Assembly: GCA_002698985.1 (NCBI GenBank) | Contig: PAAY01000069.1 | Location: forward strand, 1-47,679 | DNA: 47,679 nt | Source: Saprospirales bacterium | Lineage (GTDB): Bacteria > Bacteroidota > Bacteroidia > Chitinophagales > Saprospiraceae | Reading direction: 5' to 3' | Shown: piece after piece, positions 894 to 42,553 of the stretch | Position numbering within the stretch: the stretch's first letter is position 1 | Layout: the number at the start of each line of letters is the position of its first letter | Translations under genes and position numbers: made by a program | Notes under the pieces: model-generated | What the model was told of the DNA's origin: nothing | Databases searched by the model: none | The model's input: the letters and a program-made list of their open reading frames with translations, nothing else

Positions 894-952
894 GAGTAGG
901 GAGTAGGGAGTAGCCTGTCCGGCTAGCCAGACGGGGGATTGGGAGCGCTAGC
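894..952. repeat. GAGTAGG heptamers plus two GCTAGC palindromes
   Basis: Three GAGTAGG heptamers (894-913) sit just upstream of the pnuC promoter, with the C-free strand reading away from pnuC. Two GCTAGC palindromes (922-927 and 947-952) separate them from the 3' end of the lipase gene. The 13-mer TTGGGAGCGCTAG here is also present at the end of the PagL-like gene (17111 region). Confidence 0.8.
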
Positions 953-957
953 TCTTT

Positions 958-1791
958 TCATCCCTCATTCTTCATGCTCCGCTCCAGTATCCAGCTTGCC
1001 ACCCGGCCCATCACCTCTTTGGCGATGGGTTCGTTGTGCAATTCGTGGTAGAACCCTTCGTAGAGTTCCAGTTGCACATCGCCGGTGCAGCGTTCGGCCA
1101 GACTGGCGCTTCCCTGAAAATCGGTGATGCGGTCGGCGGTGCCGTGCATGAGAAGGAGCGGTACGGGAAATTCACCGGAAAAAGTATCGAGAAATCTGGC
1201 AGCTTCCAGCATGGTCAGTCCGGCGGCTACGCTGATGCGATCGTGGACCAGCGGGTCGGCTTTGTAGGCTCTGGCTACCTCCGGCGAAGTGGCCAGGTCC
1301 AGAGGATTCAGGCCGTTGCTCTGGGCAAAGGCGGGGAAAATGCCCTTCATGAATTTTGCGAAGCGAAGCAAAGCAGCGGATGGCTGCTCATGCAGCCGGA
1401 TCCAACTGCTCTGGGCGATGACGCCGGCAATGCCTTTCGGCTTTCGGAGCGCATAATTCAAAACGATGTTGCCGCCCATGCTCTGGCCCAATAAAAAAAC
1501 GGGCAGACCGGCATGCAGCTCTCCTGCCTTAGCAATGAGCGCATCCACACCGTCGAAGATTTCCTGCAGGGAACTGAAATGCCCTTTACGACCGCCGGTC
1601 ATCCCATGCCCCGGAAGGTCCATGGCCAAACAGGAAATCCCCCTGGTATTCAGAAATTCAGCATAGCTGTCATACCTGCCGCTGTGTTCACCAAGTCCAT
1701 GAACGATGCACAAAACTGCTCTTGATTGACCGGCTGGCCAGTGGCGGAAATGGAACTGACGCCCCCCCGGAGTTTTTAAGGTGTTATTCAT
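958..1791 (-). CDS. Alpha/beta hydrolase, monoacylglycerol lipase/lysophospholipase type
   Basis: Predicted serine hydrolase of the Hydrolase_4 group acting on monoacylglycerols or lysophospholipids. The complete triad is visible: HGLGEH oxyanion motif (31-36), nucleophile Ser104 in GQSMGG (102-107), Asp220 in HGTADRIT and His249 in YHELHNE. There is no signal peptide, so it is probably cytoplasmic. The 277-residue length is normal. The last four residues and the TGA (KNEG then stop) lie in a CTCATCCCTCAT-type repeat read on the sense strand as GAATGAGGGATGA, another gene end inside an intergenic word array. Substrate cannot be told from sequence. It stands alone between pnuC and the giant surface protein, on the same strand as both. 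Confidence 0.88.
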   Translation of the reverse strand: MNNTLKTPGGRQFHFRHWPAGQSRAVLCIVHGLGEHSGRYDSYAEFLNTRGISCLAMDLPGHGMTGGRKGHFSSLQEIFDGVDALIAKAGELHAGLPVFLLGQSMGGNIVLNYALRKPKGIAGVIAQSSWIRLHEQPSAALLRFAKFMKGIFPAFAQSNGLNPLDLATSPEVARAYKADPLVHDRISVAAGLTMLEAARFLDTFSGEFPVPLLLMHGTADRITDFQGSASLAERCTGDVQLELYEGFYHELHNEPIAKEVMGRVASWILERSMKNEG

Positions 1792-1893
1792 TTTGCTGGG
1801 TTTCCGTCTTTTTTATTTCGGTATGCGTGTATGTGTTGCCATGGGTTTCAGGCCCTGTTTCATTGGGGTTGGAGGTTGATACTTTAGGGCATT

Positions 1894-1960
1894 AGACGTT
1901 GCGGTGCAACGTCTCTACCTGCATCCTCGATTCTTCAATTCCTCGATTCCTCGATTCCTC
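1894..1960. repeat. Hairpin and CTCGATTCCT array after the giant gene
   Basis: Contains the second copy of the AGACGTTGC/GCAACGTCT hairpin (1894-1914) and an 8-9 bp tandem array (1921-1960). Read from the giant gene's stop at 1969, the sense strand gives eight T residues, then GAGGAATCG words nearly free of C. Confidence 0.8.
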
Positions 1961-1968
1961 AAAAAAAA

Positions 1969-4900
1969 TCACCGCATCAACACCACATCCCCCTCAAAAA
2001 TCTCCGTGTGGCCGTCTATGAACCGCACTTTGGCGAACCAGGTGAAAACGGCCGGATCCATGGGTTTGCCCTTGTGACGGCCGTCCCAGCCTCTGGTAAC
2101 ATCATTGGGTGCAAAGTTTTCAGAAGAAAATACATTGGCACCCCAGCGGTCAAAGATCATGAATTGCTCCACCACTTCCACCTGCGGCCCGGCGAACACG
2201 GAAAGCAGGTCGTTGATTCCGTCACCGTTGGGGCTGAAGGCATTGGGGACAAAAATCCGCCGCACCTTTTTCACGGTTACCTGCACTTCATCGGTCACGG
2301 TACAGCCATCCTCACTGGTGGCCACCAGGGTGTACAGGATGTCGTCTTGCGGTGTGGAGACGGGGTCCGGGCAGTCGGCGCAGTCCAGGTAGTCCGGTGG
2401 TGACCATTCCCAGGTGGCCGGCTCAAAATTGCGCTGCGACTGCAAAACAACGGCGTCGCCCAGTGGCACTTCATAACCGTCTCCCAGGTCGAGGAACAGC
2501 TCCGGTGCCGGCTGTACTTCAATGTTCATTTCCAGCACCACCCCGGTGGCATCTATGATCTCCACCAGGTGCGGGCCGGCCTCCACATCGGTGAAGACCA
2601 CCGGGAAAGTATCCGTTGTCACCTGATCGAAAACATCGAAAATGACGGTGTAGGGTGGCAGCCCACCCGTGGCACCTCCCACGGTAACGGTTCCGTCGAA
2701 ACCACCCGGACAGGAAGGCGAAGTCGTTGAGACGAAAGCCTCCAGGTCACCCTCATACATCAGGGTGATGTGCAGGGTGGAATCGCAGCCGGTATAGCTG
2801 CCGCCGGGAAAGATCTCCGTTCCGCTCAGGTTGGTGTGGTCGTACAGGGTGCCGTTGACGATGATGGACTCGCCGGGCTGCAAAATGGTGTCGAGGTAAC
2901 CCACAGCCGGTGGGTAATAGCTCACCGAAACCAGTATGGTGGAATCGCAACCGTCCACACTGCCGTTGGGCACCACCTCCGTTCCGGTGGGATTGGAGGC
3001 ATTGTACAGGTTGCCGTTGACGTAAATGAATTCGCCGGCGCAAAGGCTGGTGTCCAGGTTGACTACGACCGGCGGTGCAAAAGTCAGGTTGATGTTGACG
3101 ATGCTGTCGCAACCGTTCACACTGGCACCGGGCAATGTTTCCATTCCGGTCGGGTTGGCGGCATCGTAAACAGTGCTGTTCACGACGATACTTCCACCGT
3201 CGCAAAGCTCGTCATCGAGGTTGTTCACTGCCGGTGGATAAAAATCCAGGTTGACCACCACCGTGCTGTCGCAGCCGGTGTAGCTGCCGCCTGGAATCAC
3301 CACGCTTCCCATGGGGTTGTTTTCGTCGTAAACAACGCCGCCGATGGTAATGCTCTCACCCGGGCACAGGGTTGCGAAGAAAGCACCGAGTGCAGGCGGG
3401 TGGAAGTTCAGGCTGATGTTCAGAATGCTGTCGCAACCGTTCACACTGGCACCGGCCAGCACCTCCATGCCCTCCGGATTGGCCTCGTTGTAAACATTGC
3501 CGTTGATCACGATGCTGTCACCGGAGCAGAGGGTGCTCAGCAGATCGCCCTCGGCGGGTGGATAAAAGCTGAGGTTCACCATCACGGTGCTGTCGCAGCC
3601 CAGGTAGCTGGCGCCTGGCAGCACTTCCGTACCGGCCGGATTGAATTCGGAATACACCGTTCCGTTGACGGTGACGGTCTGGTTGGAGCAAAGCGTGGAG
3701 TCGAGGTTGAAAATTGCCGGAGCCGAAAACGAAAGCGCCACGTTGATGATGGAATCGCAGCCCAGGTAGCTGCCGTTGGGGATGGTCTCGGTGCCGGTGG
3801 GGTTGTTCTGGTCGTAAACAACGCCGTTGACCAGCACGCTGCCACCGGGGCACAGCAGGCTATCCAGGTCGTTCACCACGCCCGATGAAAAAGTCAGCAT
3901 CACGTTGATGGTGCTGTCGCAACCGGTGAAACTGCCACCGGGTATCACTTCGGTTCCGGTGGGATTGTTTTCGTCGTAAACGGTGCCGTTGACCGTCAGG
4001 CTGTTGCCGGAGCAGAGGTTTTGCTGCAAGTCGAACACCGCCGCAGGGTGAAAACTCAACTGGACATTGATGGTGGAATCGCAGCCCAGGCTGCTGCCGC
4101 CGGGTATCACCTCCACCCCACTTGAATTGTTTTCGTTATAAACAACGCCGTTCACAACCAGGCTATCACCGGCACAAAGGGTATCCACAATGTCCACCGT
4201 CACCTCCGGTGCCACATAGAGTGTTTCTTCCGCCTGGTTGTTGTTGTCCACCAGGCAGTTGGCATCCTGCAACTCGATGGTAAAAACCGTGACCATGCCC
4301 GTGTCGATGCCGTAGTCAGCGGGGCAAACGGTCAGCGTGTAGTTGTTGCCGTTGCTGGTCAGGCTGTCCACCGCCAGGCCGTTCACACTGTTGATGCCAT
4401 AGCGCAGATCGAAAGGCCCCACTCCGGTAAAGGTCAGCGCAAAATCATGGCAATCGCCCTGGCAGATGGTGTCGCCCGGGCTGATGTTTACCGAAGGAAG
4501 GTAAAAACTGACGGCCACACCCTGCGCCACAGATAGGCAGGGGTCATTGAGGTCCACACCGCCGCTGCCGTCGTCGTTGCCGGCCACGGCAGATACATAG
4601 TAGGTCTGCCCGGCTTGCAGGCCACCCGGCCAGGAGAAAGCGGTGGTACTGCTGGTGGCCAAAATATTGCCGAGGGTGGTGCCGCTGCTGTCGTGCAACA
4701 CGAAAACGAGCAGATCATTGCCGTCCAGCACCTCGTCGCCATTGTGCACAACGCTGAAGTCGCTGCCTTCGCAAAGCATCAGGGGCGAGGGCGGCAACTG
4801 CATGCTGCCGGCGGAGGTGGTGCAGTTGCAGTTCCTGACGCCGGTGATGGTCACAGGACCGCAGCCGTTGCCATCGTCCACAAAGAAGTTGTAAGGCGTG

Positions 4901-7818
4901 CCGCTCGGGATGGGTGTCGAGGTAAAGCTGGCGCCGGCAGGGTTGCCATTTACCGTATAAGTCGTTGGGTCGCCTCCGGCAATGTCTAAACTGACGGTGT
5001 ATTCGAAAGTGTTCAGGTCGCAGGTTTCAACGATGTTGCTGACGCTGGGCGGAAGGAGCAACTCGACGCTGGTGTAGGCCGTATCCGCACAGCCGGGTGC
5101 CAGGTAGGCCAGCGGATGCGCCCCACCCTGCCCCGCCGGCGGAAACAGCGTGTCGTTGGAGACATTGGCACCAAACCAGGTGCCACCGGGAAAGGCCGGA
5201 TCTTCGAGTTGGCTGAGGTCATAGGCGGCTCCTCCGGCACAGGTGGAATCCTGGAGCAGGTTGGGCTGGGCCGGCATCAGCACTTCCATGTTTGTCGTAG
5301 CGCCTGCGGCGCAACCGGCCGAAGGGGTAAAAGTCAGCGCAATGCTGCCACTGAGTCCCGCCGGGTCAAATTCATTGCCGCTGACGCCCGTACCCGACCA
5401 GGTGCCGTTGGGAAATGCGGGATCCTGGAGGCCTGTCAGGTCGTACAGTCCGCTGTTCTCACAAATGGTATCGGCGGCCAGCATGGGCACCGCTTCCGCT
5501 GTGATGATGAGCGAGGCAGTGGCCGTGTCGGCGCATTGCCCCGCCAGGGGTACGAAAAACAAGGTGATGGTGTCAGGCCCCACAACGATGGGATAAAGCG
5601 TATCGGAAACCACGCCCGGCCCGCTCCAGTGGCCCGCAAAGCCACCCTGGAGGGTGTCCAGCGGCAGCGCCAGTTCGCTTTCACAAACCGAAGCCGGCAA
5701 ACCGCTGATGACCGGAATGTCAGCCTGCCGGATGTAGAGGGTATCGTTGGCACCGGCGGCACAGGCCGATGATGCAGGCGTAAAGGTCAGCACCAGGAGC
5801 CCCGTGTCGGCAACGGCCGGGAAGAGGGTGTCGTTGCTGACCCCTGCCCCACTCCACGAGCCGCTGACGCCACCCTGCATGGTGGGCAGTGCCAGCGGTT
5901 CATCGAGCACGCAAAGGGTGTCGGGCAGGCCGCTGAGCAGCACCGTATCGCCCGGCACGATGGTAATATCAAAACTCGACAGCGTGGCACATTCGCCAGG
6001 GCCAGGGGTAAAAAGCAGGGTGTGCACACCGGTTCCGGCCTGGGCGGGGTCTAGCGTATCGGCTGCGACGCCATTGCCGCTCCAGCTTCCGTTGTAACCG
6101 CTCTGCACGGTGGGCAGCGCCAGTGGCGGGTCGGCCAGGCACAGCGTGTCGGGTACGCCGGTGATGCTCACAGGGCCGGGTACGTTCACGGTGATGGTGG
6201 TGTTGGTGGCCTGGGCACAGGCGCCGGTTGGCGTGAAATTCAGCGTTACATTCCCGGAGAGGCCGGCGGGATTGAAGTTGGTGCCGGAAACGCCGGGGCC
6301 CGTCCAGGTGCCGTTGGGATAATTGGGATCCTGGAGGTTCGTCAGGTCGTAAAGTCCCGAATTGTTGCAGAGGGTATCGGTGCCCAGCTGGGGTGTGGGT
6401 GCGGGATCCACCGTCAATGTCACGGGCACCAGTTCTGAAAAACAGGTGCCGTCATAAACCTGTGCAAAAACCACCGTATTGCCGGAGGTGAAGGAAGACG
6501 GATTGCCGATGGCGGTGTTGCCGTTAGGGTCCATGAACCACAGCACCGAGTTGCTGCTGTTGCCGTTCACCACATTGTTGACGCTGGTGAGATCGAAGGT
6601 AGCGGTGTTGTTGACCCCGCATTCCGACAGCGAAGTGCCCGTTGCCGAGGGCGCCGCATTGACGGTTACCTGCAGGGTGTTGGCATTGGCGCATTGCCCG
6701 GGATTCGGGGTGAAGGTAAGGGTGTATGTGCCGCTCAGCCCGGCGGGATTGAAGCTGTTGTTGTTCACGCCCGTACCCGACCACAGGCCGTTGATGCCGC
6801 TCTGTACGGTGGACAGTGCCACCGGATCGTCGTTGCTGCAGAGCGGCCCCACGGGTGTGAGGGCTGGAGTTACCGGTGTCTGAAGGGTCAGGGTAAAGCT
6901 CTCCTCGTCTTCGCAGCCGTTGGCACCGTCGTAAATGTAATAGACCCCGGGGGTGGTGATGGTATTGCCGGGCTGGTAGGAGGTGCCCGTGCCACCGGGG
7001 CCTGTGTAATAAGCCTGGTTGCCGGTCAGGTTGGTGCCGGTGATAGGCGGAAAGGTGAAGCTGGTTCCGCAAACGTTCTGGTTGGGCAGCGGATCGATGT
7101 CCGGCGCCGGATTTCCGAGGGAAACGGGCGGGGAGGTGCAGCCGTTGTTGCCGTAGGTAAGGGGCGGCAGGTGATAGTCACCGTCAGCTCCGCTCAGCAG
7201 GTTACGGTCGTAGGTGTAGGAATTGGAACATCCGTTACTGTTGAGGCCGATGGTGGTGGTTCTGGTTCCCGAACCCACATTGGTAAAGGCACCTGCCGAT
7301 CGGAAACAAGTGCTTTGTATGACGTAAATACACTGACCCTGCCCGCAGACACCTGAAAAATCGTAAGTAGTGTTGGCCCCGGCACTGGTTTGCAAAACCA
7401 CGAAGGCATTGGGCGGAATCATGAAACCGGGCCCCACGGCAATGACATTGGAACAGCCGGTGATGAGCGAAGGGTTGCCGGCCTGGATGCCACACGCCCC
7501 GGGGCCGAAGTTGATGTCGTTGTTTTCAGGGCCGATTATGTTGTTGTTGAGGTCAAAATCAACGAAAAGATCGCCCGGATCGAAACCACCGCCGGAATTG
7601 ATGATGATGAATTCGTTGGCGGATTCCGGGCCACAGGCATCCACCATGATGGCAGCCACGAAAGGGCATTGCGCCAAGGCAGTCTGCTGTTTTGACGAAG
7701 CAAGAAAAAAGAAAAGGAAAAGTGCCGGTACTGCCCAGATGCTGTTTGTGCCATAGCGGGCAAAGGCTTTCCGGAGTCCGTTGTCAGAATGAAATGATCG
7801 GCTAATGTTGGGCGGCAT
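1969..7818 (-). CDS. Giant secreted surface protein with Ig-like and 54-aa repeats, T9SS type B C-terminal domain
   Basis: Predicted cell-surface or secreted protein of 1949 residues exported by Sec and then the type IX system. I place the start at ATG 7818; a TTG at 7890 in frame is possible but would precede the hydrophobic signal (WAVPALFLFFFLA ending TALAQC) by an implausibly long stretch. After the signal comes a roughly 200-residue Cys-rich domain, then about eight Ig-like modules marked by GxWSGxGV motifs. Next are nine tandem 54-residue repeats (about residues 1207-1688) with signature LCxGxS, VNGxVY, NPTG and GCDST, two Cys each except the ninth, which has LQPG in place of LCxG. The C-terminus (VPNAFSPNGDGINDL, FDRWG, WDG) is the gliding-motility-associated domain (CHU_C). 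Ligand unknown; adhesion is a family-level guess. Confidence 0.9.
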   Translation of the reverse strand: MPPNISRSFHSDNGLRKAFARYGTNSIWAVPALFLFFFLASSKQQTALAQCPFVAAIMVDACGPESANEFIIINSGGGFDPGDLFVDFDLNNNIIGPENNDINFGPGACGIQAGNPSLITGCSNVIAVGPGFMIPPNAFVVLQTSAGANTTYDFSGVCGQGQCIYVIQSTCFRSAGAFTNVGSGTRTTTIGLNSNGCSNSYTYDRNLLSGADGDYHLPPLTYGNNGCTSPPVSLGNPAPDIDPLPNQNVCGTSFTFPPITGTNLTGNQAYYTGPGGTGTSYQPGNTITTPGVYYIYDGANGCEDEESFTLTLQTPVTPALTPVGPLCSNDDPVALSTVQSGINGLWSGTGVNNNSFNPAGLSGTYTLTFTPNPGQCANANTLQVTVNAAPSATGTSLSECGVNNTATFDLTSVNNVVNGNSSNSVLWFMDPNGNTAIGNPSSFTSGNTVVFAQVYDGTCFSELVPVTLTVDPAPTPQLGTDTLCNNSGLYDLTNLQDPNYPNGTWTGPGVSGTNFNPAGLSGNVTLNFTPTGACAQATNTTITVNVPGPVSITGVPDTLCLADPPLALPTVQSGYNGSWSGNGVAADTLDPAQAGTGVHTLLFTPGPGECATLSSFDITIVPGDTVLLSGLPDTLCVLDEPLALPTMQGGVSGSWSGAGVSNDTLFPAVADTGLLVLTFTPASSACAAGANDTLYIRQADIPVISGLPASVCESELALPLDTLQGGFAGHWSGPGVVSDTLYPIVVGPDTITLFFVPLAGQCADTATASLIITAEAVPMLAADTICENSGLYDLTGLQDPAFPNGTWSGTGVSGNEFDPAGLSGSIALTFTPSAGCAAGATTNMEVLMPAQPNLLQDSTCAGGAAYDLSQLEDPAFPGGTWFGANVSNDTLFPPAGQGGAHPLAYLAPGCADTAYTSVELLLPPSVSNIVETCDLNTFEYTVSLDIAGGDPTTYTVNGNPAGASFTSTPIPSGTPYNFFVDDGNGCGPVTITGVRNCNCTTSAGSMQLPPSPLMLCEGSDFSVVHNGDEVLDGNDLLVFVLHDSSGTTLGNILATSSTTAFSWPGGLQAGQTYYVSAVAGNDDGSGGVDLNDPCLSVAQGVAVSFYLPSVNISPGDTICQGDCHDFALTFTGVGPFDLRYGINSVNGLAVDSLTSNGNNYTLTVCPADYGIDTGMVTVFTIELQDANCLVDNNNQAEETLYVAPEVTVDIVDTLCAGDSLVVNGVVYNENNSSGVEVIPGGSSLGCDSTINVQLSFHPAAVFDLQQNLCSGNSLTVNGTVYDENNPTGTEVIPGGSFTGCDSTINVMLTFSSGVVNDLDSLLCPGGSVLVNGVVYDQNNPTGTETIPNGSYLGCDSIINVALSFSAPAIFNLDSTLCSNQTVTVNGTVYSEFNPAGTEVLPGASYLGCDSTVMVNLSFYPPAEGDLLSTLCSGDSIVINGNVYNEANPEGMEVLAGASVNGCDSILNISLNFHPPALGAFFATLCPGESITIGGVVYDENNPMGSVVIPGGSYTGCDSTVVVNLDFYPPAVNNLDDELCDGGSIVVNSTVYDAANPTGMETLPGASVNGCDSIVNINLTFAPPVVVNLDTSLCAGEFIYVNGNLYNASNPTGTEVVPNGSVDGCDSTILVSVSYYPPAVGYLDTILQPGESIIVNGTLYDHTNLSGTEIFPGGSYTGCDSTLHITLMYEGDLEAFVSTTSPSCPGGFDGTVTVGGATGGLPPYTVIFDVFDQVTTDTFPVVFTDVEAGPHLVEIIDATGVVLEMNIEVQPAPELFLDLGDGYEVPLGDAVVLQSQRNFEPATWEWSPPDYLDCADCPDPVSTPQDDILYTLVATSEDGCTVTDEVQVTVKKVRRIFVPNAFSPNGDGINDLLSVFAGPQVEVVEQFMIFDRWGANVFSSENFAPNDVTRGWDGRHKGKPMDPAVFTWFAKVRFIDGHTEIFEGDVVLMR

Positions 7819-7919
7819 GAATGACAGTGTTTGTTCAGCAGGCGTTCCCGTTCCCTTTCTACCTGTTGCCTGGAATTTTGGTTTTGGCAAGAGATCAAGG
7901 CCCCTTACAAGGCTAGTGG

Positions 7920-7956: not shown

Positions 7957-8119
7957 TAGAGCCTGTTTAAATTTCCATTACTTGGCTGCAAGCGGCCAAT
8001 TTTGTCCTGCACTTCGTTAAATTTTTCGCCGGATTACCCGTATCCGACTGCAAAATTTGCCTCGTTCAGAACAAAATTTGCTCACTTTCGCTCAAGCATG
8101 AAAACCTAAACAGGCTCTT
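7957..8119. mobile_element. MITE-like element, 163 bp, with 12-bp terminal inverted repeats
   Basis: AGAGCCTGTTTA at 7958-7969 is the exact inverse of TAAACAGGCTCT at 8107-8118. The interior has no ORF but several AAATTT/CAAAATTTGC phrases that are partly self-complementary. No transposase is present, so it would be non-autonomous. The right end coincides with the gldC stop codon (TAA, 8118-8120), suggesting insertion at the gene end or replacement of its 3' tail. Together with the promoter it accounts for the whole gap between the giant gene and gldC. Confidence 0.65.
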
Positions 8120-8456
8120 AACTGTCGCCGGTTTTAAGTATTTGAGTTTTTTCTCCGAAGTATTGGACGAACTTCTGCATGTCCACCGCCAGCTCCCGGT
8201 TTTGGGTGGCTTTGAAATAGGTGTCGGCCATGGCCCGGAGGGTCTGGAAGAAAAAACGGTCCATCTCGTTGACCTGCATGTCTTTGGTCCACAGGTCGAT
8301 TTTTACGGTGTCCAGGCTTTCCCGGTCGAACAATGACAGCAACATGGCCTTGCACTCAGCGCCGGTGGGATTGTCGTCGGCTTCCCAATGCAGGGCTTCG
8401 GGAACGTTCTGGTCATCGAGGGTTACGGTGATTCGCAGTTGGGATTTTTTAGGCAT
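8118..8456 (-). CDS. gldC: Gliding motility protein GldC
   Basis: Small soluble protein (112 residues) found across gliding and T9SS-bearing Bacteroidota. In Flavobacterium its loss impairs rather than abolishes gliding. The family pattern is clear along the whole length: an N-terminal beta segment (LRITVTLDDQNVPEALHW), then KAMLLSLFDRES, IDLWTKDMQVNEMDRFF and TLRAMADTYFKAT. It is not a core component of the translocon, so it marks lineage rather than a local secretion operon. It follows the SDR gene on the same strand, with an 85-bp repeat-filled gap. A CCATAATCC array ends a few bases before the ATG, and the stop codon touches the inverted-repeat element 7957-8119. Confidence 0.92.
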   Translation of the reverse strand: MPKKSQLRITVTLDDQNVPEALHWEADDNPTGAECKAMLLSLFDRESLDTVKIDLWTKDMQVNEMDRFFFQTLRAMADTYFKATQNRELAVDMQKFVQYFGEKTQILKTGDS

Positions 8457-8466
8457 GCTTATGAAG

Positions 8467-8528
8467 GATTATGGGGATTATGGAGGATTATGGAGGATTA
8501 TGGAGGATTATAGAGGATTATGGGGGGG
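8467..8528. repeat. GGATTATGGA decamer array upstream of gldC
   Basis: Six to seven tandem 9-10 bp words. On the gldC sense strand they read CCATAATCCT, contain no G, and end within about ten bases of the ATG, so they occupy the ribosome-landing region of the mRNA. Confidence 0.9.
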
Positions 8529-11799: not shown

Positions 11800-11838
11800 G
11801 GCAAAATGGGCGTATGTGTGAGTAATGTGAGATTTGGT

Positions 11839-11846
11839 CAAAGCTA
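11839..11846 (-). promoter_or_regulatory. Promoter -7 box of the BNR protein gene (TAGCTTTG)
   Basis: Exact TAnnTTTG on the minus strand, 40 bases before ATG 11799, predicting a leader of about 33 bases. It overlaps the alternative TTG start at 11841 and so decides the start codon. Confidence 0.6.
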
Positions 11847-11911: not shown

Positions 11912-12314
11912 GTGTAGGGTGTAGGGTGTAGGGTTTAGAGTGTAGGGTTTGGGGGGCTAGCTCCTTTGAAAGGAGGATTATGGAGGATTATAGAGGATTA
12001 TGGAGGATTATGGAGTTTAGCAGCGCAAGCTACGAGCCATTGCCTGCCACGAGCTACGAGCTACGAGCCACAGCCTGCCCCGAGACCTCGGGGAGCTACG
12101 AGCCACGAGCTACAGCCTGCCACGATCCCGAGGCCTCGGGAGGGGAGCTACGAGCTCCATGGCACTCCGTGCAAAATACTCTGTGGAACTCTGTTCAAAA
12201 CTCTGTTCAACTCTGCGGTTAAAAAAAGGAGTAGGGATTAGGGAGTAGGGGTTGGGCTATCCCCCTCATCCCTCATCACGAGCTACGAGCTACGAGCTAC
12301 GAGCTACGAGCTCA
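11912..12314. repeat. Composite repeat island between the aldolase and BNR genes
   Basis: This gap of over 500 bp is almost all repeats. In order: GTGTAGG/GTTTAGG heptamers (11912-11950); GCTAGC (11956-11961); GGATTATGGA words (11973-12014); GAGCTAC heptamers with hairpins such as CCCCGAGACCTCGGGG at 12078-12093 (12028-12158); the CTCCGTG/CTCTGCG block (12161-12220); GAGTAGG heptamers (12229-12256); CCCTCATC words running into GAGCTAC heptamers (12262-12314). The polarity of the C-poor strand switches once, near 12260. No ORF here is credible. Confidence 0.9.
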
Positions 12315-12316: not shown

Positions 12317-13375
12317 CTACGCAATGGTCACCGACTTGTCCAGGTAAACGCTCTGCACGGCGTTGATGATCTCAACCCCTTCCTTCATCGGGCGCTGGAA
12401 GGCTTTTCGGCCCAGGATGAGACCGGTGCCACCCGCCCGCTTGTTGATGACGGCGGTTTTCACTGCATCGGCCAGGTCGGATTTACCGCCGGATTCGCCA
12501 CCAGAGTTGATGAGGCCGATCTTACCCATGTAGTTGTGCACCACCTGGTAGCGGCACAGGTCAATGGGGTGATCCGTGGTGAGCTTGTCGTACATGGCCG
12601 GCGACCATTTAGAAAAGCCAATTTTCTCAAAACCACGGTTGTTTTCCGGAAGCTTTTGTTTAATGATATCCGCCTGGATGGTGGCCCCCAGGTGGTTGGC
12701 CTGTCCGGTAAGATCGGCGCTGGCGTGATAGTCCACCCCGTCTTTTTTGAAGGCGCTGTTGCGGGTATAGCACCAGAGGATGGTGGCCATGCCCAGTTCA
12801 TGTGCCATCTGGAAAGCTTCGGCAATTTCCACGATTTGCCGGCTGCTTTCCTGCGAACCGAAATAGATGGTTGCCCCCACTGCGGCTGCACCCAGGTTCC
12901 AGGCTTCCTCCACGGTTCCGAAAAGTATTTGGTCGTATTTGGTGGGGTAGGTCAGCAGTTCGTTGTGGTTGATTTTGACGACGAAAGGAATCTTGTGGGC
13001 ATACTTCCGGGAGTTGAGCGCCAACACCCCAAAGGTTGTTGCCACGGCATTGCAACCTGCTTCCATGGCCAGTTTGATGATGTTCTCCGGATCGAAATAT
13101 TCCGGGTTTTTGTAAAAGGAAGCAGCAGCAGTATGCTCGATGCCCTGGTCAACCGGCAGGATGGACAGGTAGCCGGTGCCGGCCAGGTTGCCGTGGTTGA
13201 AGAGGGCAGCCAGGTTGCGGAGTACCTGTGCGTTGCGGTTGCTGCCTTCGAAAACCCTGTCGAGGTGACCGGGGCCGGGTAGGGTCAGCCGGTCTTTGGT
13301 GATCACCTTGCAGGTGTGGTTGAGCAGGTCGTCGGCCTGGTCGCCGAAGAGGCTGTGGTAATCGAGTTGTTTCAT
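12317..13375 (-). CDS. fbaB: Fructose-bisphosphate aldolase class I (FbaB/DhnA type)
   Basis: Cytoplasmic aldolase that interconverts fructose 1,6-bisphosphate with dihydroxyacetone phosphate and glyceraldehyde 3-phosphate, using a Schiff-base lysine rather than a metal. The 352-residue length is normal for the DeoC/FbaB group. Visible motifs are LPVDQGIEH (73-81), FVVKINHNE (131-139), ADIIKQK (235-241), in which Lys239 is the likely Schiff-base residue by family comparison, and the phosphate-binding [12 protein letters not shown] (315-326). It is flanked by repeat islands on both sides. The TAG stop directly abuts the GAGCTAC heptamer array. With ppdK elsewhere in the window it fits a glycolytic/gluconeogenic role. 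No regulatory site is evident beyond the GGTTGAGAGG array 45 bp upstream of the start. Confidence 0.92.
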
Positions 13376-13418: not shown

Positions 13419-13450
13419 GGTTGAGAGGGGTTGAGAGGGGTTGAGAGAAG
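13419..13450. repeat. GGTTGAGAGG decamer array upstream of the aldolase gene
   Basis: Three decamers. The C-free strand reads away from the aldolase start. The rest of the 319-bp gap (13376-13694) holds a short hairpin, GTTCCGG (13650-13656) pairing with CCGGAAC (13663-13669), just before the 52-aa ORF, and nothing else I can identify. Confidence 0.8.
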
Positions 13451-21899: not shown

Positions 21900-21923
21900 A
21901 TTTTTCATCGCACAAATGGATGG

Positions 21924-22618: not shown

Positions 22619-22694
22619 ATTGCACGGATTGAATCAGATTGGTACATGCTGGCGGATGCTCGATTCTTCAATTCCTCATCCGCCAGCCGGCGGA

Positions 22695-27296: not shown

Positions 27297-27312
27297 ATGA
27301 ATTGAGCCCCGT

Positions 27313-30248: not shown

Positions 30249-30296
30249 AGGTTGAGAGGAGTTGAGAGGAGTTGAGAGGGGTTTAGAGGAGTTGAT
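30249..30296. repeat. GGTTGAGAGG array after paaD
   Basis: Four to five decamers, C-free on the sense strand of paaD. Words contain TGA in shifting frames. Confidence 0.85.
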
Positions 30297-34272: not shown

Positions 34273-34282
34273 GGTTTTTGTG

Positions 34283-34530
34283 GTTTTTGGATAATCGGCG
34301 AAATCCCAAAATCCGTTCAATCTGCGATCGGTTTTTGGATAATCTGCAAAATCCAATAATCCGAACAATCTGCGATCGGTTTTTGGACAATCTGCGAAAT
34401 CCAATAATCCGAACAATCTGCGATCGGTTTTTGGATAATCTGCGAAATCCCAAAATCCGTTCAATCTGCGATCGGTTTTTGGACAATCTGCGAAATCCCA
34501 AAATCCGTTCAATCTGCGAACGGTTTTTGG
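34283..34530. repeat. Five tandem 48-bp units plus partial, between exporter and adaptor genes
   Basis: Units start at 34283, 34331, 34379, 34427 and 34475 and begin GTTTTTGGAtAATC; a partial unit starts at 34523. Two subtypes differ by linked changes: CCCAAAATCCGTTCA in units 1, 4, 5 and CCAATAATCCGAACA in units 2, 3. There are no variable spacers, so it is not CRISPR. Because 48 is divisible by three, several frames stay open on both strands; no start codon other than TTG supports the plus-strand frame. GCTAGC (34535-34540) and CTCATCCCTCATC words follow, up to the HlyD start. Confidence 0.92.
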
Positions 34531-34572
34531 GAGGGCTAGCTCTCTCATCCCTCATCCCTTAACTTTTAGAGT

Positions 34573-35835
34573 ATGTACAAAGAAAACGACCTGGAACACG
34601 TAATTGGCAAGCCGCCGGGCTGGGGCATGCGTTGGGGGCTGTGGGTGGTGCTGGCGGCAATGGCATTGCTGGTCTTGTTGGCGGCGGTCATCAGCTACTC
34701 CGACGTGGTGGAGGCACCGGCCATGCTGACCACCGAGCAGCCGCCCTTCCGGGTGGTGGCGCCTGAAACCCGCACCATTGGCAAGCTGCTGGTGACGGAC
34801 GGTGCAAGCCTCGAAGAAAATACCCCCATCTTGCTGTGGCAAACGGATGCCGAACCTGCCGATGTGCAAATGCTGGAAAACAGTCTTTCCGAAGCTGTCA
34901 ATCCGGTGCAACTGGCCGGCGTCTTCGGCAACTGGACCCGCCCGCTACGCCTGGGAAGCATCGATCCGGCTTTCATTGCCGTTCGCAAAGCGGCCCGCCA
35001 ACTGCTCGATCATCAAAACGATCCACTCAGCCAAAGCCGTCTCAGCAACCTGAGAAAGCAGGTGGCGGAACAGCAAGCCCTGGCAATTTCCTTGCAGCGC
35101 CAGGCCCATACCCTGGAAACGGAACTTCAACTGGCCGCCGCCAACGTAGCCAGAGACAGCACCCTGCTGGCCCGCCGCTCACTGAGCGAATCGGAGTACG
35201 ACCAGACCCGGGCTTTTTACCTTCGGAAAAAACGGGAACTGGAAAACCTGCAATCGGAGATCGTCCGCAACCGCTTGCTGGGCAAACAACTGGAAGCGCA
35301 AATCCTCGACCTTCGGCAAAGCCGGGCCAGTGCCGGGAAGGCTGCACAACTGGCCTTCGAGACGGCTCTGCTGGAACTGAAAACGGCCATAGAATCCTGG
35401 AAAAACGGCTACCTGCTCAAAGCCCCCGTCAGCGGTGTGGTGGCATTTCCGGACAGCCGCCGCAACGGTCAGGTCCTTGCCGCAGGTGAAGTGATCCTGA
35501 GCCTGGTTCCTGAAAACGGCCACGACGCAAGACCCTACTGCCGTGCCTGGATTCCCGCCGCCGACATTGCAAAGCTGAAAACGGGAATGGAGGCCCGCAT
35601 CCGCCTGGAGGCCTACCCCTGGCAGCAACACGGCGAACTGGAGGCCCGCATCGCCAAACTGGCTGAAGTGGCCGAAAACGGGGTTTTCGAAGCTAGGCTT
35701 TCTTTGCCAAACGGCCTCGCCACCACACAAGGCAAGGACCTTGAATTTCACCACGAACTACAGGGGACGGTGAGGATCACCACTGAAAAGCGCAGCCTGC
35801 TAAAGCGATTGCTGACTAAGCTGAAATGGGAATGA
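34573..35835 (+). CDS. HlyD/EmrA-type periplasmic adaptor of the peptide exporter
   Basis: Membrane-fusion protein of 420 residues expected to link the inner-membrane exporter to an outer-membrane channel. A short cytoplasmic N-terminus is followed by one membrane helix (about 22-44, WGLWVVLAAMALLVLLAAVISY). Then comes a split biotinyl-lipoyl domain (VVAPETRTIGKLLVTDGASLEE ... LLKAPVSGVVAFPDSRRNGQVLAAGE), with a long coiled-coil hairpin between the halves (about 125-270) rich in Leu, Gln and Arg, and a C-terminal beta-barrel region (ARPYCRAWIPAADIAKLKTGMEARIRLEAYPW). It follows the exporter on the same strand, separated by the 48-bp array. No TolC-like gene is in the window. The TGA stop falls in a GGGAATGA word of the downstream array. 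Confidence 0.9.
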   Translation: MYKENDLEHVIGKPPGWGMRWGLWVVLAAMALLVLLAAVISYSDVVEAPAMLTTEQPPFRVVAPETRTIGKLLVTDGASLEENTPILLWQTDAEPADVQMLENSLSEAVNPVQLAGVFGNWTRPLRLGSIDPAFIAVRKAARQLLDHQNDPLSQSRLSNLRKQVAEQQALAISLQRQAHTLETELQLAAANVARDSTLLARRSLSESEYDQTRAFYLRKKRELENLQSEIVRNRLLGKQLEAQILDLRQSRASAGKAAQLAFETALLELKTAIESWKNGYLLKAPVSGVVAFPDSRRNGQVLAAGEVILSLVPENGHDARPYCRAWIPAADIAKLKTGMEARIRLEAYPWQQHGELEARIAKLAEVAENGVFEARLSLPNGLATTQGKDLEFHHELQGTVRITTEKRSLLKRLLTKLKWE

Positions 35836-35957
35836 GGGAATGAAGAACTGAAGAACTGAAGAACTGAGGATTTGAGGAACGGAGACAGGTACGAATGGTA
35901 ATCCAATCACCCTAAAATGCTGCCCCTCAACACATCAACAAATCAACAATTCAACAG
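35836..35957. repeat. Opposed word arrays between convergent genes
   Basis: GAACTGAAG/GAACTGAGG words (35836-35880) follow the HlyD-type gene; TCAACAAT words (35925-35957) precede, on the plus strand, the end of the oxidase gene and read GTTGAATTG from that gene's stop. Each array's C-poor strand points away from its own gene; a 45-bp unpatterned stretch separates them. Confidence 0.85.
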
Positions 35958-35965: not shown

Positions 35966-36589
35966 CTACTGCAGCAGCCAGTTGACCAGGAAAAACAGCA
36001 CCAGCAGCAGCCAGAGGCCGTCGAGGAAATGCCAGTACATGCTGACCAGCCGTAGTTGGAGGCGCTTTTCGGGATCCGAGAAGAACAGTTGCCCTCCCAA
36101 CTCCATTTGCACTTGCCGGTTGAATTTGCGAAGAAAAAGCCAGAGAAAAGGAATGCCCGCCAGCACGTGAACGAAGTGGAGCATGGACAGCAGGTAGAGG
36201 TATCCGGCGCCCTGCCCGCTTTTCAGATCGAGGTTTTGGGAAAACAGCCAGGCCCAGGCAGCTATTTGAACCAGCAGAAAGGCCACCGTGAGCCACAGCG
36301 TTCTGACCAGGGTTTGCCGGAAAAGGGCAGGTTCATCGTTTTCGAAGGCAGTTTTGGCCTTCCTCAGGTAATGGCTGCAGGCCAGCAAAACCGCCGTACT
36401 GACCAGAAAAAGCCAGGGCAGGCGAATGGGCAAGACCCCGTTCTCGACACGGGTGTAAATGAAGGCCACCATGATGCCGAAAAACAGCATTCCAATGGCC
36501 ATCATCACGAAAACCAGCATGACATTGTACGGATGGAAAGCCAGGTTCTCGTACTCGCTGAATCCTCTTCTGTCTTTGGTTTTGCTCAT
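35966..36589 (-). CDS. Cytochrome c oxidase subunit III family protein
   Basis: Five-helix membrane protein of 207 residues of the heme-copper oxidase subunit III family, short form as in quinol or caa3-type oxidases. Helices begin with HPYNVMLVFVMMAIGMLFFGIMVAFIY; later segments carry SMLHFVHVLAGIPFLWLFL and MYWHFLDGLWLLLVLFFLVNWLLQ, the usual conserved His/Glu-type positions and the YWHFxDxxW ending typical of subunit III. ATG 36589 is chosen over GTG 36643. No subunit I, II or IV is in the window, so the gene is detached from an oxidase operon or completes a complex encoded elsewhere. Divergent from the zinc-ribbon gene. Confidence 0.88.
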   Translation of the reverse strand: MSKTKDRRGFSEYENLAFHPYNVMLVFVMMAIGMLFFGIMVAFIYTRVENGVLPIRLPWLFLVSTAVLLACSHYLRKAKTAFENDEPALFRQTLVRTLWLTVAFLLVQIAAWAWLFSQNLDLKSGQGAGYLYLLSMLHFVHVLAGIPFLWLFLRKFNRQVQMELGGQLFFSDPEKRLQLRLVSMYWHFLDGLWLLLVLFFLVNWLLQ

Positions 36590-36671
36590 TTGTTCGTTTT
36601 CTTTCACCTTCGGCAATAATGCCCGAAACAATTGAATTGCCACAGGGTTGCCCGAAGGTAAAGAGCTTTTC

Positions 36672-36705: not shown

Positions 36706-37623
36706 ATGAAAAAATGCAGAGCCTGCCAACAACCCATCGCCGATGCTGCTGCCCGCTGCCCCCATTGCGGCGCAGCCGTGATCGAGGAAACCATTCTCTG
36801 TCCGGCTTGCGGCGAGGAAAACAGCCTGTACGCCAGTGCCTGCGTCAGCTGTGGAACCCGCTTCTTCGCCGGTGATCCGGAGCCCGGCATCGACGACGAC
36901 ATCTTCGGCAACGCCAGCCTGGATGCCCTGCAAAGGGAAGTGGCCAAACGCTTCGAAACGGCTTTCAGGAAAAGGCTGGAGGAAGAACATTCACCGGTGC
37001 TGCACCCCCGTTATTACGAGCGCCTGCAGCAGTCCGGCTTTCAGGGCAACCTCAATTTCAGGATTGAACAACTGGCCACGGAGGTCTCTGCCCTGGGCGC
37101 TGATTTCAGAACCAAGGCGGTGAAAAAACTGCTGGAAAGAAACTTTGAGGAACTGCTCGATTACTTCATCATCCGCTTCTGTGCCGACCTGAATGAGACC
37201 AATTACCCCGAAGCCATCCTCCGCTACCACGGCAAGTCACTCGACCAGATTGACCTGCGCCGGATGATCCTCGACTACCTGGACCTGGAAGTGGAAGACC
37301 TCAGCTGGTACGATGATTTTGTGGCCATGCCTGCAGGGAAACTCCGGAACGCCGCCGACAATTTCCTCTTTCCGAAAAAGGACGAAAAGCTCTTCCTCAT
37401 CGTCAACACGGCCATCCTCGGCAACTGCAAGAACGGCTTTGCCATGACCTCCAAATGCCTCTACTGGAAAACCGAGCTGGAACCCGCCCAAAGGGTCTTT
37501 TACCACAAACTGGAAGAGGTGAAACGGGATGACAAATGGATTACCATCAACGGCATCTTCTTCCACGCCTCCACCTCCATCGATCTGAAAATGATTAGGC
37601 TTTTGAAGAGGTTGAGGGTGTAG
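36706..37623 (+). CDS. Double zinc-ribbon protein with uncharacterised C-terminal domain
   Basis: A 305-residue soluble protein. The N-terminal 50 residues form two zinc ribbons: Cys4/Cys7 with Cys18/Cys21 and Cys32/Cys35 with Cys46/Cys49. A helical middle follows (about 75-175, DALQREVAKRFETAFRKRLEEEH, then KAVKKLLERNFEELLDYFIIRF). The C-terminal part has KKDEKLFLIVNTAILGNCKNGFAMTSKCLYWK and ITINGIFFHASTSIDLKMIRLLKRL, which looks like a beta-rich PH-like module of the kind that follows zinc ribbons in many bacterial proteins. No enzymatic motif is visible; nucleic acid or protein binding is a guess. The TAG stop and last codon (RV) fall in the first GTGTAGG word of the downstream array. Confidence 0.75.
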   Translation: MKKCRACQQPIADAAARCPHCGAAVIEETILCPACGEENSLYASACVSCGTRFFAGDPEPGIDDDIFGNASLDALQREVAKRFETAFRKRLEEEHSPVLHPRYYERLQQSGFQGNLNFRIEQLATEVSALGADFRTKAVKKLLERNFEELLDYFIIRFCADLNETNYPEAILRYHGKSLDQIDLRRMILDYLDLEVEDLSWYDDFVAMPAGKLRNAADNFLFPKKDEKLFLIVNTAILGNCKNGFAMTSKCLYWKTELEPAQRVFYHKLEEVKRDDKWITINGIFFHASTSIDLKMIRLLKRLRV

Positions 37624-37803
37624 GGTGTAGAGTTTAGGGTGTAGAGTTTAGGGTGTAGAGTTTGGAGGGGCTAGCTCCGTGGAACTCCGTGTCAAATCTC
37701 TGTGCAACTCCGTGAAATAACTCTGTTTATCTCTGCGGTTAACTGAGTGTAGCGTGTAGGGTTTGTGCCCCTCAACAATTTCAACAATTCAACAATTTCA
37801 ACA
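37613..37803. repeat. Repeat island between convergent zinc-ribbon and pdxH genes
   Basis: GTGTAGG/GTTTAGG heptamers (37613-37664), GCTAGC (37670-37675), the CTCCGTG/CTCTGCGGTT block (37674-37741), more GTGTAGG words (37747-37762), then TCAACAATT words (37765-37803). The C-poor strand flips near 37763, so each half points away from its own gene. Confidence 0.9.
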
Positions 37804-37812: not shown

Positions 37813-38457
37813 TCACGGAGCCAGCCGCTGAATCTCCCAGTTTCCGGCATCGTCAAGGCGGTACTCAAATCGATCGTGGAGGCGGTTTTCCCGGCCCTGC
37901 CAGAATTCGATGGCGGTGGGGATGACCCGGTAGCCGCCCCAGAAATCGGGTAGCGGCACCTGTTTGTTGGCGAACTTCTTTTTGATCTCCTCAAACTTCA
38001 TCATCAGCAATTGGCGGGAGGTGATGGGGCTGCTCTGGTTGCTCACCCAGGCCCCCAGCTGACTGCCGCGGGGGCGGCTCATGAAGTACTTCAGGCTCTC
38101 CGCCGTTGACACCTTTTCAACATGCCCCTCGATCTTGACCTGGCGGTGCAAATCCAGCCACGGGAACAGGAGCGAAACTTTCGGGTTGGCGGCCATGTCC
38201 CGGGCTTTGCGGCTGTTGTAGTTGGTGTAAAACACAAAGCCGTTTTCGTCGAAAAACTTCAGCAGCACCACCCTGGCCGAGGGCTGCCCTTCAGCAGACA
38301 CGGTGGACAGCACCATGGCATTGGGCTCCCGCAGCTGGGCCTGTTCTGCCTGTTTGAACCATTTTTCGAATTGCACGAATGGACTCGCATCCAGGTCTTT
38401 CCGGTTCAGTCCCTCACTGAGGAACTCTTCACGCATTGCACTGAGGTCGAGAGACAT
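37813..38457 (-). CDS. pdxH: Pyridoxamine 5'-phosphate oxidase
   Basis: FMN enzyme that oxidises pyridoxine or pyridoxamine phosphate to pyridoxal phosphate with oxygen. The 214-residue length and full family pattern are present: [75 protein letters not shown], the [17 protein letters not shown] loop and the C-terminal [25 protein letters not shown], which carries FMN- and PLP-phosphate-binding Arg and His. It stands alone. GTTTAGG-type words begin 5 bp upstream of the ATG with their C-free strand reading away from the gene. The TCAACAATT array abuts its 3' end. Confidence 0.95.
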
Positions 38458-38462
38458 GGGGG

Positions 38463-38515
38463 TGTTTAGTTTAGAGTTTAGGGTTTAGGGTGTAGGGTTT
38501 GGGGTTTGGGGCAGG
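38463..38515. repeat. GTTTAGG/GTGTAGG heptamer array upstream of pdxH
   Basis: Seven or so heptamers; C-free strand reads away from the pdxH start. The remaining 170 bp up to ppdK show ATGAC-AGTG-GTCAT (38627-38640), a possible small operator, and a weak -7-like CAGATTTG (38663-38670). Confidence 0.8.
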
Positions 38516-41516: not shown

Positions 41517-41553
41517 AAAGGAGCATGGTCTTGCCACCATGCTCCTTTGTTTT
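41517..41553 (+). terminator. Intrinsic terminator of ppdK
   Basis: Thirteen-base perfect stem, AAAGGAGCATGGT (41517-41529) with ACCATGCTCCTTT (41536-41548), six-base loop, followed by GTTTTT. The only textbook hairpin-plus-T-run terminator in the window. Confidence 0.88.
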
Positions 41554-41593
41554 TAAAGGGACAAGAGCCTGCATTAATCCCGACCACCTGGCT

Positions 41594-41682
41594 GTACTCA
41601 AAACGAAGTGTGTTGGGCTGCGATCCTGAATCCTGCTAAAGTTTGAAGCTGGGATTTCCCAAACCACCTCGCGTAGGGTATA
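41594..41682. mobile_element. MITE-like element, copy 1 (TACTCAAAACGAAGTG ends)
   Basis: Left end TACTCAAAACGAAGTGtGTTGG (starting 41595) is matched in inverse by the right end ending ACCTCGCGTAGGGTATA at 41682. About 89 bp with no ORF. Copies 2 (44015-44173) and 3 (from 47578) share the ends but not the middle. It fills most of the gap between ppdK and the DedA gene. Confidence 0.7.
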
Positions 41683-41745
41683 GAAACATCAAGCCCCATC
41701 AGGTTATTTATCCGCTTTCACCCAGGCGTACAACTTTGAGCAGTC

Positions 41746-42381
41746 TCAATTATTGCTGAACCGCCGCAAACCTGACCGCACCAAGCCTGCCAATGTGACA
41801 ACTAAAAGAAGGAACAGTAAACCGGTGAATACCAAACCGAAATTTTCACGCACGAGGGTGGTATCGCCAAGGTAATAGCCCAGCAACAGGTAGGTACTGA
41901 CCCATACAATACCTCCGGCAATATTGGCCACGGAATAACGCCAGAAAGGCATTCTCGACAGACCCGCTACAAAGGGTACAAAAGAGCGCATAAAGGGAAC
42001 ATATCGACTGAAAAACACCGCAAGCCCACCGTATTTTTCATAATACTCCCTGGCCTTGTCCAGGTAACGAGTCCAGGTATTTTTCCTTTTTCCGAGGAAT
42101 CGCTGCCCGATAAATTCACCAATGAGAAAATTGGAGGTATTTCCGAGTATCGTGGCCACACTGGCCAGTATGAGCAGCAAACTCAAATCAAGACGGCCTG
42201 TAGTGGCCATTAGCCCTGCTGCAAACAACAAACCGTCACAGGGAAAAATCATCACCACTACCAAGCCTGTTTCTACAAACACGATTAGAAACAACAGGAA
42301 ATAGGTCAATGCGCCATATTTCTCAATAATGAGCCCTATGGCTTCATCGGCGTGCAACATCAAGTCGAATAATTCCTGCAT
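41746..42381 (-). CDS. DedA family membrane protein
   Basis: Integral membrane protein of 211 residues from the DedA/SNARE-associated family, whose members act in undecaprenyl-phosphate or phospholipid translocation and envelope homeostasis. Recognisable are the re-entrant region FVETGLVVVMIFPCDGLLFAAGLM and the family's FFSRYVPFMRSFVPFVAGLSRMPFWRYSVANIAGG with its essential arginines. The start ATG 42381 is followed outward, at 42385, by the GGATTATGG array, so array words form the mRNA leader. The frame open further upstream to 42543 runs through repeats and is rejected. Neighbours are ppdK (convergent) and the phospholipase D family gene, upstream on the same strand; the pair could both concern phospholipid metabolism. 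Confidence 0.9.
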   Translation of the reverse strand: MQELFDLMLHADEAIGLIIEKYGALTYFLLFLIVFVETGLVVVMIFPCDGLLFAAGLMATTGRLDLSLLLILASVATILGNTSNFLIGEFIGQRFLGKRKNTWTRYLDKAREYYEKYGGLAVFFSRYVPFMRSFVPFVAGLSRMPFWRYSVANIAGGIVWVSTYLLLGYYLGDTTLVRENFGLVFTGLLFLLLVVTLAGLVRSGLRRFSNN

Positions 42382-42553
42382 GTTGAGAGGATTATGGGGA
42401 TTATGGGGATTATGGAGGTTGTAGGTTGTCCCCGATACCGATATCCCGATCCCGAAGGATTTCGGGATTCGGGATCGGTATCGGGGGTAGGTTGTGTTTG
42501 GGGGCGGTGGTTCCGTGAAACTCCTTGTGGCAACTCTGCGCAAGGCTGTGGTT
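42382..42553. repeat. Repeat island upstream of the DedA gene with a long nested hairpin
   Basis: GGATTATGG words (42385-42418), a 57-bp bulged hairpin (42430-42486: outer arms CCCCGATACCG and CGGTATCGGGG, inner CCCGAA/TTCGGG around GGAT) and the fourth CTCCGTG/CTCTGCG block (42508-42553). The hairpin core matches the one at 27313-27356. The rest of the gap to 42789 has one small hairpin (ATTGCAC-GGA-GTGCAAT, 42619-42635) and no gene I can support. Confidence 0.85.

Follow-up and report, generated by a model that had tools for sequence, protein, structure and literature searches.

C-poor tandem arrays in a Saprospirales genome point away from the genes they abut, at starts as well as at stops

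The gaps between genes in a stretch of 47,679 nucleotides from a Saprospirales bacterium (contig PAAY01000069.1 of assembly GCA_002698985.1; this whole stretch is hereafter the window) carry tandem arrays of short words, one strand of which contains little or no C. A reading of these letters without database searches (the sequence-only reading) had proposed that the C-poor strand always points away from the gene that an array borders, both after stop codons and before start codons. Examination of a larger part of the genome confirms that this two-ended polarity next to genes is real: counting one array per gene edge, 97 of 101 arrays less than 20 nt from a stop codon (p = 3e-24) and 65 of 69 arrays less than 60 nt from a start codon (p = 3e-15) are directed outward. 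The word "always" overstated the rule, since roughly 4-6% of the arrays at gene edges in this genome point the other way.

Results

The window lies within a 4.83-Mb draft genome of 102 contigs, from which we sampled 1,225,829 bases including the window (about 25%); unless another source is named, all counts refer to this sample. Genes were called with a home-made hexamer-score caller, benchmarked on annotated Nostoc DNA only: of the 42 genes annotated in full on a 45-kb stretch of a Nostoc plasmid, it found the stops of 34 and the exact starts of 29, and the one additional call corresponded to an annotated gene truncated by the end of the stretch. (The sole polar gap array in that stretch lies about midway between two stops, at 16 and 19 nt, and points inward from the nearer one.) Arrays were identified with Tandem Repeats Finder (TRF; period 6-12, score of at least 30) and were termed polar when |GC skew| was at least 0.6. 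An array is outward when its C-poor strand is directed away from the gene. Distance and nearest-edge counts use arrays whose midpoint lies in a gap, and per-edge counts take one array per gene edge under a looser skew filter of 0.55.

The window has 22 polar arrays centred in a gap, and 20 of these are outward by nearest edge. Past stop codons lie (ATCGAGGA)4.6 at 1924-1960 (minus strand, here the C-poor one; 8 nt past the stop of gene 1969-7890(-)), (ATGAGGG)2.1 on the minus strand at 12263-12277 (39 nt past the stop of gene 12317-13375(-)), (GTTGAGAGAA)7.3 on the plus strand at 16351-16423 (no C; 10 nt past the stop of gene 15630-16340(+)), (GTTGAGAGGA)4.5 on the plus strand at 30251-30295 (no C; 8 nt past the stop of gene 29760-30242(+)), (TTTGTTGA)3.8 on the minus strand at 35927-35956 (9 nt past the stop of gene 35966-36643(-)), and (AATTGTTGA)3.7 on the minus strand at 37772-37803 (9 nt past the stop of gene 37813-38457(-)). 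Elsewhere the array itself holds the stop codon: the first of the GGGAATGA and TGAAGAAC arrays at 35828-35867 (+) contains that of gene 34573-35835(+), and (AGGGTGT)6.3 at 37615-37658 (+) contains that of gene 36706-37623(+). Likewise, (TGAGGAAT)3 at 22080-22103 (-) overlaps the 3' end of gene 22085-22618(-) and contains its stop; it obeys the rule and stands outside the 22 because its midpoint falls in the gene.

Upstream of start codons, the C-poor strand of the window arrays is the antisense one. On the plus strand, these arrays comprise (TTATGGAGGA)6.6 at 8459-8523 (no C; 2 nt upstream of the start of gene 8118-8456(-)), (GTGTAGG)5.3 at 11912-11948 and (GGAGGATTAT)4.4 at 11972-12015 (both without C; 70 and 130 nt upstream of the start of gene 9250-11841(-)), (GGTTGAGAGG)2.9 at 13419-13447 (no C; 43 nt upstream of the start of gene 12317-13375(-)), (GGAACTGA)5.4 at 21922-21963 (four C, 15 G; 56 nt upstream of the start of gene 18839-21865(-)), (GATTATGAG)12.4 at 26650-26763 (one C, 40 G; overlapping the start codon of gene 25885-26655(-)), the TGAGGATG and GAACTGAG arrays at 27371-27435, with a CCCGAAAGCTTTCGGG palindrome between them (102 nt from the start of gene 26858-27268(-)), (GTTTAGG)6.1 at 38469-38511 (no C; 11 nt upstream of the start of gene 37813-38457(-)), and (GGATTATGG)3 at 42389-42415 (no C; 7 nt upstream of the start of 41746-42381(-), a weakly supported gene call). 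On the minus strand are two (GATTATGGAG) arrays at 16433-16453 and 16473-16513, which have a G-free plus strand and end 5 nt upstream of the start of gene 16519-17115(+), and (GGATGAG)2.3 at 34544-34559, 13 nt upstream of the start of gene 34573-35835(+). The two exceptions by nearest edge are (GAGTAGG)2.9 at 894-913 (+; no C, 11 G), which lies 52 nt from the start of gene 260-841(-) and 44 nt from the stop of the next gene, and (GGAGTAG)3.3 at 12228-12250 (+; no C), which is directed at the stop of gene 12317-13375(-), 66 nt off, and was absent from the arrays listed in the sequence-only reading. TRF finds the arrays that had been listed, apart from 22659-22681 (-): there, about two TGAGGAAT-type units, some 14 nt past the stop of gene 22695-24248(-), are visible in the sequence and fall under the score threshold. 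Several of the listed words are C-poor rather than C-free; GAACTGAGG and TCGAGGAA have one C per unit.

Across the sample, we found 591 gap arrays of period 6-12, of which 379 are polar, and the C-poor strand of the polar ones consists of 41% G, 31% T, 27% A and 0.8% C. They are built from 103 words of 6-12 bp, the commonest being AGGGATG, AGGATTATGG, AGGGAGT, AGAGTTT, AGGGTGT and AGGGTTT. The arrays are not equally common inside genes: only 59 polar arrays are wholly intragenic and only 3 of these use any of the 27 common words, whereas those words are found in 292 of the 379 polar gap arrays. Single word families turn around according to the gene end that they border, as had been noticed in the window; AGGATTATGG, for example, occurs within 40 nt of seven starts and seven stops. 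By nearest edge, 293 of the 379 polar gap arrays are outward.

This overall figure conceals a strong dependence on distance. When all arrays are counted, those that begin between -99 and +19 nt of a stop are 96 outward and 4 inward, and those at 20 nt or more are 65 outward and 54 inward; 24 of 43 are outward at 20-59 nt, and 19 of 32 per-edge arrays at 60 nt or more. At start edges, overlapping arrays are 2 outward and 0 inward, arrays at 0-59 nt are 68 and 4, and arrays at 60 nt or more are 62 and 24, with 9 of 15 per-edge arrays outward at 130 nt or more. The bias is thus gone about 20 nt past stops and fades between 60 and 130 nt upstream of starts, so the rule does not extend to all gap arrays, as had been supposed, and orientation is near-random farther past stops and deep in gaps. 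The main counts leave aside 13 further polar arrays that span a gene edge and are centred inside the gene; all 13 are at stops and all 13 are outward.

The bias is present in every type of gap. At stops, 41 of 42 arrays in convergent gaps and 56 of 59 in tandem gaps are outward, and because convergent gaps are equally polar, the polarity at stops is not due to the leader of a downstream gene. At starts, the corresponding values are 52 of 54 in tandem gaps and 13 of 15 in divergent gaps. Arrays of both orientations (+ and -) occur together in 64 gaps, of which 56 run + then -, 3 are reversed and 5 are mixed. Adjacent pairs in the deep interior (at least 60 nt from a stop and 130 nt from a start) show no order, with 6 pairs +- and 5 -+.

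A promoter-like motif, TAnnTTTG, is enriched 25-74 nt upstream of starts (84 occurrences, against 14 in reverse orientation). Scoring every array against each start within 200 nt, arrays that lie beyond such a motif are 4 outward and 0 inward at 0-59 nt, 9 and 7 at 60-129 nt, and 6 and 2 at 130-200 nt, all of them small counts; without an intervening motif, the values are 68 and 7, 31 and 20, and 15 and 23.

The sequence-only reading had proposed repeating the count in relatives, and the bias is strong there also. An exact two-unit query word was found in only one of 59 other genomes searched, a member of the same genus (G003; 620 kb examined, with 78-96% protein identity over 22 close orthologs), in which 31 of 32 stop edges and 28 of 30 start edges are outward. 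In its deep gap interiors, pairs are again unordered (12 +- and 9 -+). Four more genomes of the genus, whose words are mostly different, have 20 of 21 stops and 14 of 17 starts outward. To these we added 80 loci, out of at least 118 stretches, from genome contigs scanned for four GGGGAYT units; by their titles, they are mostly from Cyanobacteria, together with Chloroflexota, Stenotrophomonas, Xanthomonas sp. and others. Here 49 of 50 stops and 48 of 54 starts are outward. In array-bearing gaps of at least 100 nt, the fraction of positions 0-40 nt past stops that is covered by outward arrays is 0.17-0.32 in our genome, G003 and the low-GC loci, and 0.11-0.20 in 27 high-GC gaps; for inward arrays it is 0.00-0.04, and 0.10 in one high-GC bin. 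The occurrence of the GGGGAYT heptamer family in Chloroflexota, Stenotrophomonas and other non-cyanobacterial records among these loci suggests convergence or transfer.

Sister species often differ in their arrays. We compared 56 ortholog pairs between our genome and G003; for 13 of them, one or both species have an array no more than 25 nt from the stop. For 10 of these 13, both proteins align to within four residues of their ends, and the array is mostly missing from the other species or made of other words (array-free control pairs were not tabulated). Gene 37813-38457, for instance, ends here in TGA followed by TGTTGAAAT words, and its G003 ortholog has the same C-terminus followed by TAG and a GGGATGA array.

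Stop-codon usage departs from the genomic norm beside arrays. TAA terminates 37% of 338 array-free genes with a gap of at least 60 nt. The corresponding number is 1 of 42 for genes whose stop is overlapped by an outward array (counts derived from fractions) and 1 of 50 for genes with an outward array starting 3-19 nt past the stop. At the other gene end, leaders devoid of arrays are already G-poor, with frequencies of 0.25 for C and 0.13 for G at -20 to -10 (n = 488, gaps of at least 60 nt).

Discussion

Although the sequence-only reading knew of no described element class with two-ended polarity, that claim of novelty fails, because such polarity was reported by Rehm et al. 2015 (PMC4692102). 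According to the available part of that paper, G-rich heptamers in Xanthomonas and Nostoc lie up to 50 bp upstream of open reading frames (ORFs) in antisense, or within 50 bp of stop codons in sense; some repeats overlap the stop, and 70 convergent pairs occur in one Xanthomonas genome. As far as that text goes, these heptamers, GGGAATC in Xanthomonas and GGGGA(C/T)T in Nostoc, resemble our arrays in being intergenic, tandem, dispersed genome-wide, rarer in genes and polar in the same sense at gene ends, and also in their closely spaced convergent pairs and their overlap with stop codons. They differ in that each organism there has one G-quadruplex (G4)-forming type of word, whereas here 103 nearly C-free words, some without G-runs, occur in a member of the Bacteroidota; neither heptamer is among the 70 most frequent of our 103 polar words. 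A further difference is that words here often change or vanish at orthologous gene ends. What is new is the many-word, C-free form in Bacteroidota, together with the tests of mechanism; the polarity itself was already published.

In the literature on repeats and their polarity, none of the matches listed reports these repeats in Saprospiraceae. The STRR heptamers of heterocystous cyanobacteria, said to be the subject of work by Mazel et al. that Rehm et al. 2015 cite, are reportedly also short tandem repeats between genes, and in this they are like the arrays described here. TAACTGA repeats (MacGregor 2015, PMC4679880) occur in Beggiatoaceae, Cyanobacteria and some Bacteroidetes; in the portion of that report available, they are a single GC-balanced word found mainly on the start side, with no two-ended rule stated and with one set in the F. 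litoralis genome lying past a stop in reverse orientation, in contrast to the many C-poor words of our arrays. The BrickBuilt element of Porphyromonas gingivalis, a minisatellite-MITE (miniature inverted-repeat transposable element; PMC4596501), is likewise a Bacteroidota intergenic tandem repeat, and its 23-bp period recurs in the CTCCGTG family at 28-76 of the window. As described in the accessible text, however, BrickBuilt is a single element family with inverted-repeat ends and lies 49-591 nt from genes, unlike arrays that abut them.

The cause of the polarity is only partly understood. The explanation that we put forward tentatively, and that could well prove wrong, is that the arrays are intergenic sequences of fast turnover that are filtered where they meet translation signals. 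They would be fast-evolving minisatellites, drawn from a common vocabulary of C-free words, dispersed and repeatedly replaced; and next to a gene, selection would tolerate an array only in the orientation harmless to translation. All of the start codons ATG, GTG and TTG contain G, and the stop codons are free of C. Upstream of a gene, a G-poor mRNA leader would be free of additional start codons and of G-rich sites that compete, and would form little structure; if the leader must be G-poor, an array there could have only its G-free strand as sense. Downstream, any array extending to the end of the coding sequence would have to terminate translation: TAG or TGA is present in most of the C-free words here and the G-free strand could supply only TAA, so that the C-free strand would be sense when an array abuts a stop. 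In this way, two separate filters, one at each gene end, could resemble a single strand rule.

The start half of this account is the better supported, by several agreeing results. Array-free leaders are likewise G-poor, and the available part of Baez et al. 2019 describes Bacteroidota leaders as lacking Shine-Dalgarno sites, with initiation tuned by low structure. The stop half leaves part of the data unexplained. That TAA is rare at stops abutted by arrays indicates that in our genome the array often supplies TGA or TAG, with loose ends; and because genes that border arrays seldom end in TAA, nor do those with an inward array at 20-59 nt, the turnover of repeats may be reshaping stop-codon usage.

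Several observations weigh against a filter at translation signals. The TAA pattern is irregular: TAA ends three of the five genes with an outward array 0-2 nt past the stop, and none of the 24 genes that have an inward array as their nearest, at 20-59 nt, although an array so placed could not have been the source of the stop codon. In the 80 loci, arrays of words that are free of stop codons on both strands (GGGGATT is an example) are outward at stops in 27 of 27 cases, and TAA is only about halved near these words (9 of 27 against 100 of 173). Two arrays in our own genome have a stop-free C-poor strand and TAA on the other strand, and both are nonetheless outward. That stop-free words obey means that the supply of stop codons cannot be the whole story; it is ruled out as the sole cause at stops and, given the scarcity of TAA, is retained as a contributor. 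Moreover, array-free trailers show no general avoidance of C (0.23 for C and 0.25 for G at +1 to +9). Nor do tRNA genes behave as a purely translational rule predicts: although they are untranslated, four of the five arrays nearest to an edge of a tRNA gene (75 distinct tRNAs, two genomes) are outward. These cases are few, two of the four may represent one orthologous gap, and the fifth is a 19-nt array that overlaps a tRNA end and points inward.

The reach of the polarity raises similar difficulties. In the 80 loci, all 30 of the gaps with both orientations run + then -, and of the 10 stop edges that have their nearest array at a distance of at least 60 nt, none is outward. In our own genome, looser limits on the interior leave some order among adjacent pairs (24 +- and 8 -+ at 20 nt from stops and 60 nt from starts; 12 and 7 at limits of 40 and 100 nt), and 67 of 113 arrays deep in the interior are outward relative to the nearer edge. 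The stop half of the account covers much of our genome and fails for the stop-free cyanobacterial words; an additional constraint in the first 20 nt or so past stops may therefore operate, or arrays may arise at gene ends in a polar manner.

The last of these possibilities can be extended to the whole phenomenon. Arrays might arise at gene edges by a process that is itself polar and builds them outward; examples are 3'-end extension at breaks, templated slippage that nucleates at gene ends, and deletions mediated by arrays that remove the gap as far as the last functional base. Their polarity would then be inborn rather than selected. The 30 ordered gaps in the 80 loci lower our confidence in a translational filter and raise this alternative, which also gains from the order of 56 of 64 such gaps in our genome, the tRNA-edge arrays, the sharing of one rule by unrelated groups and words, and the concentration of outward arrays at stops (coverage of 0.22-0.32 at 0-40 nt, versus 0.05-0.10 beyond 100 nt, in array-bearing gaps of at least 100 nt in our genome). 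Set against it are the unordered deep interiors in both species and the fact that only 5 of 61 gaps have paired arrays from one word family (shuffled mean 5.9), which gives no sign of a two-ended element, so that on the whole we consider a polar origin possible and rather unlikely. A mirror element or break-healing is unsupported in our genome on these same two grounds and is kept as a rival because of the 30 ordered gaps; a transposon or MITE with inverted ends, which should carry one family of words at both its ends, is not supported by that count. The paired arrays do share their period more often than expected (30 of 61, versus 17.8 when shuffled). A comparison limited to word families found that the arrays of a gap in our genome are not complementary, as the stem arms of an intrinsic terminator would be.

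The G-richness of the C-poor strand invites an explanation based on G-quadruplex or i-motif structures, which would fold and affect transcription or termination when directed outward. Many words here have GGG runs, and the repeats of Xanthomonas and Nostoc, with the same placement, form G4 in vitro (Rehm et al. 2015, PMC4692102); the available part of that paper discusses quadruplexes and identifies no regulatory role. Yet G-runs are not general: judged by sequence, the arrays less than 20 nt from stops in our genome comprise 62 with runs of three or more, 31 with runs of at most two and 8 with single G only. Words without GG, such as GTTGAATT, are outward at 8 of 8 stops and 4 of 4 starts in our genome, and at 14 of 15 stops and 11 of 13 starts over four sets. 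A requirement for G4 is rejected because GG-free words obey, and structures of this kind are an improbable cause of the polarity. Still less probable are insulators of the Rho type, in which transcripts that enter a gene from outside would meet C-rich, G-free RNA onto which Rho loads. The orientation fits such insulators at both ends by definition; however, distances of 5 and 40 nt past a stop should serve an insulator equally well, and polarity at stops in our genome is gone beyond 20 nt. The rule is also equally strong in the mostly cyanobacterial loci, and cyanobacteria are not known to possess Rho. Gene calling might itself create the pattern if ORFs were read through G-free arrays, which would then be lost into genes, and if starts were placed past arrays. 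Because stop codons lack C and start codons carry G, the ends of ORFs and the orientation of arrays are in principle linked, but the three common-word arrays wholly in genes, as compared with 292 in gaps, are too few to conceal a missing orientation. This artefact is very unlikely and is rejected on those counts, on the alignment of orthologous C-termini between species and on the agreement of the caller with the Nostoc annotation; words that are stop-free on both strands argue in the same direction.

To return to the filter at translation signals, its start half would make the arrays a source of natural G-free leaders of many lengths, useful for working out the rules of leaders that lack Shine-Dalgarno sites. 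The stop half points to a constraint within about 20 nt past stop codons that present knowledge explains only in part. A rule that is nearly absolute at both gene ends, in Bacteroidota, Cyanobacteria and the published Xanthomonas, makes dispersed repeats a readout of the DNA that is tolerated there. It is conceivable, although we doubt it, that the rule is a general law, by which every C-poor tandem array in contact with a gene, whatever the phylum or the word, is outward regardless of its G4 potential or its stop codons, perhaps even beside untranslated genes. If so, there would be a common and unrecognised process or constraint at gene edges.

The window holds repeats of other kinds. At 1-76, at 12170-12260 and in other gaps of our genome, 7-mer arrays often end inward at a GCGCTAGC / GGGGCTAGC palindrome, followed by CTCCGTG...CTCTGCGGTTAAA arrays of 23-bp period and then by another 7-mer array, the composite measuring about 120 bp. 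Palindromes of the CCCGAAAGCTTTCGGG type interrupt arrays in window gaps, as at 27310-27460. Two window proteins have T9SS sorting domains, a mark of Bacteroidota. Finally, five 48-bp units with a 92% match, at 34282-34530, separate an ABC transporter gene from its HlyD-like neighbour.

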